This document shows positions 14,004 through 64,000 of a stretch of DNA of 64,000 bases, piece by piece (positions within the stretch are counted from its first letter, which is position 1; every line of letters starts with the position of its first letter). Below the pieces are notes generated by a model. That model did no database searches, was not told the origin of the DNA, and saw only the letters and a list, made by a program, of their open reading frames with translations. The stretch is taken from assembly GCA_016194975.1 (NCBI GenBank), contig JACQAM010000016.1:124001-188000 (forward strand). Reading direction: 5' to 3'. Origin of the DNA: Bacteroidota bacterium. GTDB lineage: Bacteria; Bacteroidota; Bacteroidia; Palsa-965. A program made the translations under genes and the position numbers.

Positions 14004-14076
14004 AAATGAAAGAATTATAGAACAAAGATAGAAAATACTGCAGGGAAATTTAAGTAGTAATAAATCTGTGCAAGTC

Positions 14077-14222
14077 AGAGGCTGTTTAAAATTCATTTTT
14101 TGGAATTGTTATGATGCCATTTTTGTTCAGCCGAGACGCATTTTGCAGGCCATAGTGGAGCGACTACGGCCAAGAAATGCAACGAAGGATGAACAAAAAT
14201 GGCGCATAACAAAACAGCTCGC
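14077..14222. mobile_element. MITE-like nested hairpin element
   Basis: The spacer folds into a long hairpin. GCTGTTT (14081) pairs with AAACAGC (14212), TTGTTATG (14106) with CATAACAA (14205), and GCCATTTTTGTTCA (14116-14129) pairs perfectly with TGAACAAAAATGGC (14190-14203). An inner GCATTT/AAATGC stem lies around GTGGAGCGACTAC. The first 23 bases (AGAGGCTGTT then TAAAATTCATTTT) recur exactly, inverted, at 55572-55594. There is no coding capacity. A non-autonomous transposable element is the best reading. Confidence 0.6.
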
Positions 14223-14267
14223 AGGGGGACTAATCAGCATCAATTTCAGAATATTGCCATAGATTTT

Positions 14268-14322
14268 CACAGATTATTTTCCAAATTGTAAATTGTATAT
14301 CGTAAATTGTACATTCAGCAAG
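14268..14322 (+). repeat. 55-bp leader repeat, copy 1
   Basis: The sequence begins CACAGATTATTTTCC, continues with GTAAATTGTA words and ends ACATTCAGCAAG. It matches 15941-15995 at 54 of 55 positions. It ends 11 bases before the ATG of the WG-repeat gene; the second copy ends 11 bases before another secreted-protein gene in the same orientation. Confidence 0.85.
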
Positions 14323-14333
14323 CCTTATTACGG

Positions 14334-15782
14334 ATGAGCCGCTATAGTTTTCTTTTTTTTATTCTGCCGGTTCTTTTTGTTCAATTCAATTGTACGCAGG
14401 GTTATGCTGCACTGAAAAAAAACACATCGCCATTCGATTCACTTTTCGAAGCACATACAAACGGAAAATGGGGATGGATCGATCGTAAAGGAAACACCGC
14501 CATTCCTTTTATTTTCGATAGCATTCTCTGGCACGGATGGAATGCCCACAACCGCACTGTAATTTTTCATGGAAAGACGGGCGTGATCGATTCGTCAGGA
14601 AAATTTATTCTTCAGCCGCTATATGATGAAGTGTGGGAAGGTTCAGGCGATTCGATTTTCAGTGCGAGGATCGGGAGAAAATTCGGACTCGTTACGGGGA
14701 ATGGAAAAATCCTCATCCCATTTAAATATGAGCACCTTTATAATTCGCATGCGCCGGGAGATTCGATTTACGAAATGGAAATAAAAAACCGGGTCGGGCT
14801 CATTACAAAAACCGGGAAAGAAATTATTCCGCCGCGCTTCGATCGTTTTGGTTCGTTCTGGAACTGCGGAACAAATTATTATGGCGTTGGTTTCGATTGG
14901 GGAATTGTTCACCTCGATGGAACATATGAGCGGCCGATTTACAATACCGAGATAAAAGTTCAGGAAGCGCTTCCGGCTTGCAGGCCCGATACATTTTTCG
15001 GCGATCTTCACAACGGACTGAGATTGGTGCAGGTGAACGTCATTGGAAAAACCGGTTTTATGCGTTCCGGTAATTCATGGGTTATTCCGCCGGAGTATGA
15101 TGATGCAAAAGATTTTTCCGAAGGACTCGCCGCAGTCACTGCTGACGGAAAAAAATGGTTTTACATTGACACGACCGGGAAAAAAGTTTTTGGTAATTAC
15201 CGGGATGCTTCTTCTTTCAAAGATAGTGTTGCTATCGTGGACAATGATTCGCTTATTGATAAGAAAGGGAATATTATTGCTGTGAGTAAATTCTATATTC
15301 AGGAATATGAACCGGAATACAAATGTTTTCAAGTCGATGCAGAGGATGATGATTTTTCTGTTGGTAAATGGGGGCTGATGGACCTGCACGGGAAAATGAT
15401 CGTCGATCCGTATTTTTATCATGAATTTGATTCTCCTTCCGATGGAATGATCGCGGTTTGCGAGCGCGTGGATGATACGATGGGTACGAGCCAGCACGGG
15501 CATGTGTGGGGGTTTGTGAATATGCAGGGGCGGGAAGTCATTCCCTGCATTTATCCTGACAATTATGATTATCATTTTTCCTGTGAGCTGGCGGCCGTTC
15601 CGAAAGATTATAAATGGATCTTCATTGATAAAAGCGGGAAGCAGGCCATTCCGTTTCAATATGACTATGCAGCAAATTTTGTGAATGGACTGGCGCGTGT
15701 GTATGTGAATAAAAAAATGGAATACATCGATACGAAAGGAAAAGTTGTTTGGAAAGAAGATTCGGTTGGCAGTAACCAGTAG
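14334..15782 (+). CDS. secreted WG-repeat protein
   Basis: This 482-residue protein starts with a hydrophobic signal peptide (MSRYSFLFFILPVLFVQFNC). It then has repeated units of the WG family: GKWGWIDRKGNTAIPFIFD, GKTGVIDSSGKFILQPLYDE, KFGLVTGNGKILIPFKYE, RVGLITKTGKEIIPPRFD and later copies to the C-terminus, about nine in all. WG-repeat proteins are common secreted or surface proteins in Bacteroidota and the repeat probably makes a beta-rich binding scaffold; their ligands are unknown. The start was chosen at the ATG before the signal peptide; an upstream TTG would read into the leader repeat. Confidence 0.88.
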   Translation: MSRYSFLFFILPVLFVQFNCTQGYAALKKNTSPFDSLFEAHTNGKWGWIDRKGNTAIPFIFDSILWHGWNAHNRTVIFHGKTGVIDSSGKFILQPLYDEVWEGSGDSIFSARIGRKFGLVTGNGKILIPFKYEHLYNSHAPGDSIYEMEIKNRVGLITKTGKEIIPPRFDRFGSFWNCGTNYYGVGFDWGIVHLDGTYERPIYNTEIKVQEALPACRPDTFFGDLHNGLRLVQVNVIGKTGFMRSGNSWVIPPEYDDAKDFSEGLAAVTADGKKWFYIDTTGKKVFGNYRDASSFKDSVAIVDNDSLIDKKGNIIAVSKFYIQEYEPEYKCFQVDAEDDDFSVGKWGLMDLHGKMIVDPYFYHEFDSPSDGMIAVCERVDDTMGTSQHGHVWGFVNMQGREVIPCIYPDNYDYHFSCELAAVPKDYKWIFIDKSGKQAIPFQYDYAANFVNGLARVYVNKKMEYIDTKGKVVWKEDSVGSNQ

Positions 15783-15940
15783 GCACTAAACAGAAGCGGC
15801 AGTGTATAGCGGCAGCGGTAGTTGCAAAAGAATCAGGAAAGCAGGTACGGCAGAAGAGAAAAGCCGTGACAGCAACCTGTGAGTATCTGTGGCAATATTT
15901 GTGAAATTGACACTGGCGATTTTCAATCGCGGAAATTTGC

Positions 15941-15995
15941 CACAGATTATTTTCCAAATTGTAAATTGTACATCGTAAATTGTACATTCAGCAAG
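15941..15995 (+). repeat. 55-bp leader repeat, copy 2
   Basis: This copy is identical to 14268-14322 except for one T-to-C change at position 31. It stops 11 bases before the ATG of the secreted protein at 16007. The two downstream genes are not homologous, so the repeat is not part of a gene duplication. Confidence 0.85.
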
Positions 15996-16006
15996 TTTTG
16001 TAACCG

Positions 16007-16579
16007 ATGCTTGGCAAAAGATTTCTTTTTTTTTCTTTTTTCTTCGCGATGAGTTATTCGCTTCCTGCTCAATTCTTCGTGGGAATAAAATTCATGGGCA
16101 TCACTTTTCACATCGATAAAAATCAGAACAGCGATCTCTATAAAAATGCATTCGGGAAAAAGAAACGCCTCGCCATGAATTTCGGAGTTGCGGTCACAAC
16201 AGAATACATGTTTTACCCGGAAGTTTCTGTGAAAATTGACCAGGCGCTGTTCCGCGATTGTGCCGGGAAATTGGCGGGGATGACCATGTTCAATTTCCGG
16301 TACACGGTCGATCTCCGTAAAGCAGGAAATGCAAGCGCAGGGCTCGGCCCGTTTTTTTATTACCGGAAAAACTGGAATTCATTCGGCAATTATATTAACG
16401 ACGGATACTTCAAAGATTCGAAGAACGGAAAATGGCAAACGAAGTTGGTCTGGTACGGAGGTGAACTCGAATACAATTTCCCATTGGGAAACGGGCTTGA
16501 TCTCTCCACGAATATTCTTCCGGGAATTCCTGTAGTAATTGCATTGACACCCGGTGTGCGGATGAAAATTTCTCAATGA
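16007..16579 (+). CDS. secreted protein, probable small outer-membrane beta-barrel
   Basis: This 190-residue protein has a signal peptide (MLGKRFLFFSFFFAMSYSLPAQ, cleavage likely after PAQ). The mature chain has alternating amphipathic strands (LAMNFGVAVTTEYMFYPEVSVKIDQALF, MFNFRYTVDLRK, SAGLGPFFYYR) and ends VVIALTPGVRMKISQ, which looks like a small outer-membrane barrel. The family is not recognised. It converges directly on the next gene without any gap. Confidence 0.75.
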   Translation: MLGKRFLFFSFFFAMSYSLPAQFFVGIKFMGITFHIDKNQNSDLYKNAFGKKKRLAMNFGVAVTTEYMFYPEVSVKIDQALFRDCAGKLAGMTMFNFRYTVDLRKAGNASAGLGPFFYYRKNWNSFGNYINDGYFKDSKNGKWQTKLVWYGGELEYNFPLGNGLDLSTNILPGIPVVIALTPGVRMKISQ

Positions 16580-17029
16580 TCAGAATAATTTTCCATAGCC
16601 GGGTAATGTGCTTGCGCCACTAAATCCTCCTATTGCGGAATTCGAATTGTTATTATTGTAGCAACTCTCCAGAACTTTTCCAAGTTCAAGAAAATGCGGG
16701 AAGAAAGCTGAGAGAAAATCTTCGGCCGATTCATTCCCGTTAAAATAATTTGCAGTGGCCGCCCACGCTTTTTCATTATTCTCCATCAGGTGTTCAACGG
16801 CTTCATCATCTTCATCAAGTGCACGGATAAAAAGCAGCAACGCAGAAAATTCATTCGCCTTCAGCCATTCGAGCGCTTCTGTTTTTCCCTGCACGAGCAC
16901 ATCCGCGAGCGCAGCAAGTTCCTTGAAATTATTCGTGATCAGCCAGTGAAAAGCATCCGCATCTTTTTTTATGCTTGCTGCAAGAGCGAGAATGGTTGGC
17001 GCTGAATATGTTTTAACGATCGCATCCAT
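16580..17029 (-). CDS. hypothetical acidic alpha-helical protein
   Basis: This 149-residue, strongly acidic, Ala/Leu/Glu-rich protein is predicted to be almost wholly helical (for example DADAFHWLITNNFKELAALADVLVQGKTEALEWL). It has no signal peptide; the end is Asn/Ser/Gly-rich and probably disordered. The repeating motif of an aromatic plus acidic helix pairs (EALEWLKANEF, EAVEHLMENNEKAW) hints at a helical-repeat fold. I recognise no family. It is just downstream of the secreted lipocalin-like gene on the same strand. Confidence 0.72.
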   Translation of the reverse strand: MDAIVKTYSAPTILALAASIKKDADAFHWLITNNFKELAALADVLVQGKTEALEWLKANEFSALLLFIRALDEDDEAVEHLMENNEKAWAATANYFNGNESAEDFLSAFFPHFLELGKVLESCYNNNNSNSAIGGFSGASTLPGYGKLF

Positions 17030-17042
17030 ACTGAAAATTTAT

Positions 17043-17465
17043 CTATTGTGTTTTTCTGCGGTAACGGAATTTTTCTCCGCGCACGGTAATGAGAAGTTCA
17101 TCATCGGAAGCATCATAAAAGTATTCGAAGGAAAATTTTTTTCCTTTGTCACTTTTTACACACCCGTCAGAAAGTGTGGCGGAAATTTGTTTTCCATTCG
17201 AGAAAGCAAGAAACCATGAAGGACAATCATAACCTTTGTCATCATTCATACCAAGTGCACCCATCGATTGTGCAGTTCCCGCATTGAATTTTAAAATCTT
17301 CCAGGGTTCATCAGCAAGCGGCGCCGCAGGAGCATTCGTGTCATTCGCGATCCATTCCCATTCACCAACGATCGGATCCTTCGCGTCGAGCAATGCAAAT
17401 TTTGTTTGTGCACGAATGGAAGTTGCGCCGGAAAAGAAAAATAACAGCAGAAAAAAATATTTCAT
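17043..17465 (-). CDS. secreted lipocalin-like hypothetical protein
   Basis: This 140-residue protein begins MKYFFLLLFFFSGATSIRAQ, a signal peptide with cleavage after RAQ. The mature sequence opens with DPIVGEWEWI, the G-x-W motif seen at the first strand of lipocalin-like small barrels of Bacteroidota, and contains two cysteines (YDCPSW and DGCVKS) that could form a disulfide. A longer start adds only three residues. It is probably periplasmic or on the surface; the ligand is unknown. Confidence 0.72.
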   Translation of the reverse strand: MKYFFLLLFFFSGATSIRAQTKFALLDAKDPIVGEWEWIANDTNAPAAPLADEPWKILKFNAGTAQSMGALGMNDDKGYDCPSWFLAFSNGKQISATLSDGCVKSDKGKKFSFEYFYDASDDELLITVRGEKFRYRRKTQ

Positions 17466-17571
17466 AGGGATCAATTCATACTAAGGTACGAAAGGATGAT
17501 GGAGCAGGGAAGCCGGACTTATTTCTTTTGGGGAACCGATTAATTTATCAGATACTGACAGCGAGTCCATT

Positions 17572-25564: not shown

Positions 25565-25664
25565 TTAGTCATTGGCCATTGGCCAATGGGAATTGGTCGT
25601 CGGGGAATTTTTTCTATGATACAGTTTGAATCAATGACTAATGACCAATGATAAATGAGCAAGT
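25565..25664. repeat. GTCATTGG / CCAATGAC word repeat with inverted arms
   Basis: TTAGTCATTG (25565-25574) is the exact inverse of CAATGACTAA (25632-25641), and both sides continue with further ATTGGCC or GACCAATGAT words. Shorter copies of the same word are at 19561-19577 and 26360-26376. It is a spacer word family with hairpin potential. Confidence 0.6.
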
Positions 25665-37020: not shown

Positions 37021-37073
37021 TAGCGAATTACAGATTTTAGGGATATGCGAATATACGAATGGAAGATGGAGGT
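37021..37073 (-). repeat. ATTCGTATATTCG leader repeat, copy B
   Basis: On the minus strand it reads CATCTTCCATTCGTATATTC then GCAT, identical for 24 bases to copy A at 17575. It continues to GTAATTCGCTA, ending four bases before the oxygenase ATG. With copy C at 37129-37172 it forms an inverted pair between the divergent genes. Confidence 0.8.
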
Positions 37074-37128
37074 TGGACTTATTCCACTAATGGGAAATGA
37101 TGCATTGCCCGAATACCAAAACCAAGTG

Positions 37129-37172
37129 CATCTTCCATCCCCCATTCGTATATTCGAAGATCCGTAATTCGT
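37129..37172 (+). repeat. ATTCGTATATTCG leader repeat, copy C
   Basis: CATCTTCCAT, four more bases, ATTCGTATATTCG, then GATCCGTAATTCGT ends just before the ATG at 37178. It is the inverse partner of copy B, so the whole divergent spacer can form a cruciform. Confidence 0.75.
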
Positions 37173-46388: not shown

Positions 46389-46423
46389 CGATGTAAAATT
46401 AAAGGTAGTGCATTATCTAAATA

Positions 46424-46493
46424 CCAAATCTCAAATTCCGGACTAACTCGATTGACTCTTGGAATTTGAGATTTGAGATTTGGAATTTGTGGC
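46424..46493. repeat. GGAATTTGAGATTTG inverted word repeat
   Basis: CCAAATCTCAAATTCC (46424-46439) is inverted as GGAATTTGAGATTTG (46461-46475), which then repeats in tandem as AGATTTGGAATTTG. Its right end overlaps the putative -33 TTTG of xth. The same word family occurs at 47310-47351 and as a perfect hairpin at 60528-60568. Confidence 0.65.
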
Positions 46494-55452: not shown

Positions 55453-55579
55453 TTACCACAACTCACTCATTTTCATTTCAAGAAATTCCTGCCATCTTAT
55501 TCCTCCATCGCCCGTATCAAGCTTCTTGTTGTAATAGTCGTCTTCCTGTTTCAGATCTTCGGGGTCGTCGTAAAATGAA
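55453..55579 (-). pseudogene. orphan C-terminal gene fragment abutting a repeat end
   Basis: On the minus strand a protein-like frame reads DDPEDLKQEDDYYNKKLD, then TGDGGIRWQEFLEMKMSELW before TAA at 55453. Upstream, the frame meets a stop inside the exact 23-bp repeat (55572-55594) shared with the MITE-like element at 14077. It has no usable start codon. It looks like the end of a gene cut by an element insertion or deletion. No family is recognised. Confidence 0.45.
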
Positions 55580-55594
55580 TTTTAAACAGCCTCT
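55572..55594 (-). repeat. 23-bp end of the MITE-like element, inverted copy
   Basis: It matches 14077-14099 exactly in inverse orientation (ends AGAGGCTGTT and AATTCATTTT). The rest of the element is not present here, so it is an isolated terminal piece. Confidence 0.7.
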
Positions 55595-60514: not shown

Positions 60515-60527
60515 AAAAGAAAAAAAC

Positions 60528-60568
60528 AAATCCCAAATTCCAAATTTTGTTTTTGGAATTTGGGATTT
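60528..60568. terminator. perfect 17-bp hairpin between hemA and hemC
   Basis: AAATCCCAAATTCCAAA (60528-60544) pairs without mismatch with TTTGGAATTTGGGATTT (60552-60568), loop seven bases. It is AT-rich and followed by TATATTTTTG. It may end or attenuate hemA transcription; it is also a member of the GGAATTTG word family and contains the -33 element of hemC. Confidence 0.6.
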
Positions 60569-60578
60569 TATATTTTTG
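60546..60578 (+). promoter_or_regulatory. hemC promoter inside the hairpin, leaderless
   Basis: TTTG (60546-60549), 21 bases, then TATTTTTG (60571-60578) match the consensus. The -7 box ends four bases before the TTG start codon at 60583. The -33 element lies in the hairpin loop region. Confidence 0.6.
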
Positions 60579-63119: not shown

Positions 63120-63229
63120 CACGTGTGATGTCGGGTGGCACCACGCGTGATGTCGGGTGTTATCACGCGTGGTGTCGGGTGTTATCACGTGTGATGTCGG
63201 GTGTTATCACGCGTGATGTCGGGTGTTAT
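63120..63229. repeat. five tandem 22-bp REP units
   Basis: Five contiguous units of CACGCGTGAT followed by GTCGGGTGTTAT (variants CACGTGTG and CACGCGTGG; the first unit ends GTGGCAC) begin two bases after the hemB stop. Each has an 8-base CACGCGTG palindrome. The last one continues into an inverted CACCCGACATG, forming a REP hairpin (63218-63237). Confidence 0.9.
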
Positions 63230-63237
63230 CACCCGAC
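63218..63237. repeat. upstream REP hairpin
   Basis: GTCGGG, loop TGTTATCA, CCCGAC. It is the inverse, with one mismatch, of the downstream hairpin at 63926-63945, so the transposase gene lies between inverted REPs. Confidence 0.85.
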
Positions 63238-63889: not shown

Positions 63890-63945
63890 CCCGACCCGTG
63901 TCGGGTGATAACAACTCGGCTTTGTGTCGGGTGATAACGCCCGAC
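63890..63945. repeat. downstream REP hairpins
   Basis: CCCGAC-CCGT-GTCGGG (63890-63905) follows the stop at once. GTGTCGGGTGATAAC occurs twice (63898 and 63924), and GTCGGG-TGATAACG-CCCGAC spans 63926-63945. These are the same REP family as upstream, inverted. Confidence 0.85.
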
Positions 63946-64000
63946 GCCACTTCGTGTAAAACACCAACAACGAATAAAAAAAGGGTTGTCTTTTAGAACA

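Follow-up and report, generated by a model that had tools for sequence, protein, structure and literature searches.

Near-identical leaders of two unrelated genes carry a start-facing arm of a genome-wide intergenic heptamer family

Two nearly identical stretches of DNA, each ending shortly before a start codon, raise the question of why unrelated genes should share a leader. In the window examined here (the whole stretch of DNA analysed, 64 kb in length), leader copy 1 (14268..14322, + strand, 55 bp) and leader copy 2 (15941..15995, + strand) agree at 54 of 55 positions, the sole difference being T14298 versus C15971; they lie on the same strand, 1673 bp apart, and each is followed by 11 bases and then an ATG, at 14334 and 16007, respectively. 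Copy 1 precedes a WG-repeat protein gene (14334..15782, + strand; Pfam PF14903, E 2.6e-56), while copy 2 precedes the gene of a 190-aa protein (16007..16579, + strand) that has a signal-peptide-like start and no Pfam match. The pair is as a first-pass annotation had described it, and the exclusion of gene homology as the cause of the matching leaders also holds, since the two downstream proteins are unrelated by protein comparison. Judging from the sequence, it is possible that the duplication extends into the coding start: 26 of the 38 bases 3' of the 55-mer match between the copies, the ATG and an equally placed T run among them, and 25 matches are reached by 0.06% of random gene-start pairs and by 1.7% of T-rich ones. 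A duplication that included the 5' ends of both genes, whose coding parts later diverged or were replaced, would produce such agreement; set against the unrelated proteins and the chance level among T-rich starts, it is regarded as highly improbable. Orthologues of the WG gene comprised one 38% partial match in the genus and none in the wider genome contig collection, and among plasmids the only match was weak and partial (79%), from Limosilactobacillus. The segment at 14334-17474, which holds the WG gene, the gene of the 190-aa protein and a further two small genes, has no clear counterparts at that place in the genus relatives examined.

The 55-base match is far beyond chance, but it is local. 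A whole-genome search (4.1 Mb) found no third place for the full-length 55-mer, the next best matches spanning query bases 12-50, and the earlier view of the 55-mer as a repeated leader is accordingly not borne out. The 5' flank CACAGATTATTTTCC (14268..14282 in copy 1 and 15941..15955 in copy 2, both + strand) is common to the two leader copies only, and CACAGATTATTTTCC and TTCAGCAAG co-occur, in the genome search, only at the two window leaders. Because these extra flanking bases are found nowhere else, one leader appears to have been copied from the other recently, and we infer a local recombination or gene-conversion event beside the WG gene, which is lineage-specific. A second direct-repeat pair around genes (C8:169192 and C8:170979), which resembled the window pair, was considered and set aside, as only the heptamer core is common to its members and the flanks are not.

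Within the 5' flank of copy 1, CACAGATT is similar to ACAGATT, another heptamer type of the same genome, and AATCTGTG (14063..14070, - strand; 8 bp) is a weak, possible inverted partner of it; upstream of copy 2, ATCTGTGGCAA (15885..15895, - strand) is the inverted partner of TTGCCACAGAT (15937-15947), a short pairing read by eye from the sequence. At 14077-14230 lies a dispersed palindromic element of about 150 bp (AGAGGCTGTTTAAAATTC...TTTTTGTTCAGCC...GGATGAACAAAAATGGC...); an inverted end of it occurs at 55572-55594 and another copy upstream of etfB (L008), with a related element upstream of recG in the genus relative G005 (L267). Another dispersed family of intergenic palindromes, with the ends GGGCATCTCTAAAAAC and GTTATTAGAGATGCCC, is represented at L063:12466-12611, L076:4947-5096, L057:15873-16082, L063:15465-15698 and L072:3855-4142. 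Elsewhere in the window, a 22-bp tandem repeat (CACGCGTGATGTCGGGTGTTAT, 5 copies) occupies 63120-63232, and an inverted partial copy of it lies about 690 bp off, at 63925-63950.

What the leaders have in common with the rest of the genome is their core, a 32-bp arm of the form (AMATYGT)x4+AMAT that occurs at 30 intergenic sites in the 4.1-Mb genome. Confinement to two places, which the annotation had named as evidence against its reading, was therefore found for the 55-mer unit and not for its core. In copy 1 the arm (14283..14314, + strand, 32 bp) reads AAATTGT AAATTGT ATATCGT AAATTGT ACAT and fits the consensus at 31/32 positions; in copy 2 (15956..15987, + strand, 32 bp) it reads AAATTGT AAATTGT ACATCGT AAATTGT ACAT and fits at 32/32. 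The two-heptamer seed AMATYGTAMATYGTA gave 59 matches genome-wide, which collapse to the 30 sites, versus 0 for a reversed control. Although the seed demanded only about two heptamers and so did not impose the arm length, five heptamers are scored in 30 of 46 arms, and four heptamers plus AMAT in another 6, such that 36 of the 46 share the 32-bp length. In an alignment of 38 arms, heptamer positions 1, 3, 4, 6 and 7 are near invariant and nearly all variation falls at positions 2 (A/C) and 5 (T/C), which vary independently along the arm (variance test P=0.10; 38 arms). The AMATYGT code was derived from the same data that it describes, and the P values given here are nominal, several tests having been run. 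As the alignment took only arms scoring 4-5 heptamers and started each of them at its first heptamer, the arm edges are partly conditioned by this anchoring and by the limitation to one length class; the length count over the 46 arms is the cleaner evidence.

The arrangement of these arms follows a consistent rule. About 18 of the 30 sites carry two arms in inverted orientation (the second being weak in some), and all of these (18/18) are outward-reading, a minus arm being followed by a plus arm, with intervening loops of 5-81 bp that have no common sequence by eye. The remaining 12 sites, both window copies among them, have single arms, and 11 of these 12, again including both window copies, point towards a start codon as placed by a simple ORF caller (one of the 11, C22:244281, was judged by eye), while one single arm comes after a stop. 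Sites between convergent genes number 1/30, compared with an expectation of 17.6% of intergenic regions (P=0.02). One AAATTGT arm, at L045:16873-16905 (G000:C7:136874), lies inside an apparent coding start, at a place where its translation would fall in the signal-peptide region.

Heptamer arrays in this genome are not limited to AMATYGT. Among the lags examined in sampled intergenic DNA, 7-bp periodicity is enriched, with 22 segments at lag 7, 0-6 segments at lags other than 7 and its multiples, and about none in shuffles; these statistics cover about 0.8-1.2 Mb of the 4.1 Mb, of which about 1.18 Mb was sampled as stretches. The same enrichment is seen, more weakly, across 80 loci of the phylum. 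Many heptamer types coexist in the genome, including AATYYTG (44 matches in a whole-genome search, control 0) and AACYCAT (18 matches, control 1). Arrays of both types comprise 2-7 units, for which reason a fixed length for all heptamer types does not strictly apply, and their paired arrays are also outward-reading. Array lengths in the sampled genome nevertheless peak at 31-33 bp (23/76), and 24 of the 76 sampled arrays have an inverted partner (score at least 12, within 160 bp), versus 3 in a foreign-flank control. The window itself holds further inverted, mostly heptamer-like intergenic repeats of the AAATCTC, CAAATTC and CAATGAC types, at 37037-37167, 46416-46489, 60520-60576 and 25565-25658.

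Relatives differ in the heptamer that they carry. Of six genus relatives, five have no match to the AMATYGT seed and the sixth has three; since most genus relatives lack this heptamer, it cannot be essential. At the orthologous POT, HBD, sucC and murB junctions, some relatives have arrays of other heptamers and other relatives have no arrays; where present, the relatives' arrays have the upstream gene on one side and a conserved promoter-like box on the other. By assignments read by eye, the POT junction has AACTCCC-like units in G001 and ACTCCGA-like units in G007, the HBD junction has TCTAAAG-like units in G003, and the sucC junction has AATAGGA/ACCAATC-like units in G001. Farther afield, a three-unit AMATYGT pattern occurs in 25 of 395 Bacteroidia genomes, patchily and in many families, with one control match, and five-unit arms near starts are common in those genomes and in ten metagenomic contigs of a viral collection. 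One Bacteroidia genome, G350 (locus L345), has 476 matches to the three-unit pattern, and its arrays reach 29 units; arrays of 25-29 units are found in some Bacteroidia genomes, long and variable heptamer arrays (16-115 nt) occur in a different family, and both G012 and G350 have arrays that are long and variable.

What the leaders share, then, is the start-facing arm of an intergenic heptamer family that is spread through the genome and whose members stand singly or as outward pairs. As to mechanism, the preferred though unproven proposal is that the arm may be a recognition site for a putative factor at the borders of open reading frames. Such a factor would contact the 7-nt units singly, spanning about 4.5 of them, and may bind in DNA or in 5'-untranslated RNA. 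The species-specific heptamer could reflect turnover of the factor's specificity or of the copies; arrays would grow, spread and be replaced quickly, and for this reason an individual copy is probably dispensable. The common length, restricted variation and uniform orientation of the arms argue for recognition by something, whereas the species-specific heptamer, the patchy distribution and the long arrays elsewhere argue for rapid turnover, possibly selfish or mutational. The explanation as a whole (family arm, local copy and recognition site) is held with confidence slightly above even. A broader and rather doubtful extension would define a class of sites in Bacteroidia, about 32 bp long (4 x 7 + 4, roughly three helical turns), with a degenerate heptamer code that changes from species to species; a putative modular or oligomeric reader would act on it at gene borders, the site being kept at some junctions with its code rewritten.

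The main rival to recognition by a factor is mutational spread, in which arrays without function would arise in unconstrained intergenic DNA through polymerase slippage and local template switching, be spread by occasional recombination and persist where they are harmless. This process would be in keeping with the enrichment of the 7-bp period over others, both in this genome and across the phylum, with the long, variable arrays of G012 and G350 and with the species-specific heptamers found at the same junctions; the less regular types of 2-7 units and the arrays of 16-115 nt likewise fit slippage, which has been proposed for heptanucleotide repeats (Mrazek et al., 2007, as cited in MacGregor, 2015). 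It accounts poorly for a common arm length, variation at two of seven positions, outward order and start-facing single arms, and template switching within a hairpin is further opposed by partner arms that are not homogenised (P=0.97), leaving a purely mutational origin somewhat unlikely. The same comparison bears on a hairpin in RNA or DNA, wherein the inverted arms would serve as a terminator, an insulator or a stabiliser of mRNA ends. Intergenic long inverted repeats are in excess (27 with a score of at least 16 versus 1 in shuffles), and intergenic palindromes sit between stop codon and promoter. Partner arms, however, show no covariation: a partner is no closer in sequence than an arm taken from another site (P=0.97), which gives no indication that pairing is selected for at the variable positions, and a hairpin with compensatory change was discarded on this test. 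With 12 of the 30 sites single-armed, the window copies included, and convergent pairs, the expected places for terminators, under-represented for AMATYGT, the hairpin is the reading that is given the least probability. No Rfam family matched above its gathering score in the 64-kb window.

Mobility and promoter function were both raised by the first-pass annotation. A dispersed repeat with strong ties to gene starts was upheld, a classic mobile repeat was not supported. If each inverted pair were a small mobile unit bounded by 32-bp terminal inverted repeats and mobilised by a putative transposase or recombinase, then dispersal, the fixed order of inverted pairs and a patchy occurrence among relatives would all follow; against this, no target-site duplication was found at the 13 pairs with both arms well defined, the short loops share no sequence and many arms are single. 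Miniature inverted-repeat elements (MITEs) were rejected on the missing target-site duplication and shared interior, and mobile ends in general are considered unlikely. The leader as a promoter is not sustained either. An AAATTGT array might provide the gene that follows with TTG motifs of the -33 kind or with a site for a regulator, and arms do face starts, with perfect TAnnTTYG boxes after several of them (e.g., sucC, etfB, and murB); nevertheless, neither window copy is followed by a TAnnTTTG -7 box (the closest sequences fit at 4 and 5 of 6 positions), and perfect boxes after arms are only modestly above the control windows (14.6%). Several arms, moreover, stop 3-9 nt short of the ATG, and outward arms also abut stop codons, which makes an upstream promoter element distinctly improbable. 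The features of the family make its cause a testable question: either a factor recognises 7-nt units where genes begin or end, or the heptamers are written by a mutational process of unusual regularity, and each outcome would account for a widespread part of Bacteroidia intergenic DNA.

Among known systems, the closest likeness is to the TAACTGA heptamer direct repeats, which are intergenic, mostly facing and close to a start codon, interspersed with related heptamers, patchy in Beggiatoaceae, Cyanobacteria and some Bacteroidetes, and present or absent between close relatives; sets number 2-6 copies in BOGUAY, where a single inverted repeat was reported among them, and up to 43 elsewhere (MacGregor, 2015; PMC4679880). 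The AMATYGT family also consists of tandem 7-bp units that are intergenic and start-oriented. It differs in its unit, which is not TAACTGA and has two variable positions, in most arms being 32 bp where TAACTGA copy number is variable, in outward inverted pairs being the rule and in the presence of several heptamer types in one genome. The long simple sequence repeats with 7-nt units described by Mrazek et al. (2007), as far as they are presented in the citing article (PMC4679880), share the seven-base period; those are long, near-perfect arrays, whereas the arms here are short and of common length, show degeneracy at two positions and are paired and oriented. REP, BIME and REPIN sequences are likewise short, dispersed, intergenic inverted repeats, although the present arms are heptamers and not palindromic hairpins (by inspection), and their motif has no GTAG/CGTC-type end. 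MITEs resemble the paired sites in that arms like terminal inverted repeats flank a short interior, unlike which the family has no target-site duplication, no homologous interior and frequent single arms. The Mpi-type invertible promoters of Bacteroides also place inverted repeats in front of genes, and in the same phylum, but here the loops are short (5-81 bp), the arms are heptamer arrays and many are single. No other description of an AMATYGT-like pattern was found in the literature searched, a scope that lay mostly outside subscription journals. In summary, heptamer repeats near bacterial start codons are already known, and what is added here is their common length, a two-position degenerate code, an orientation rule and the replacement of one heptamer by another at the same junctions in relatives.
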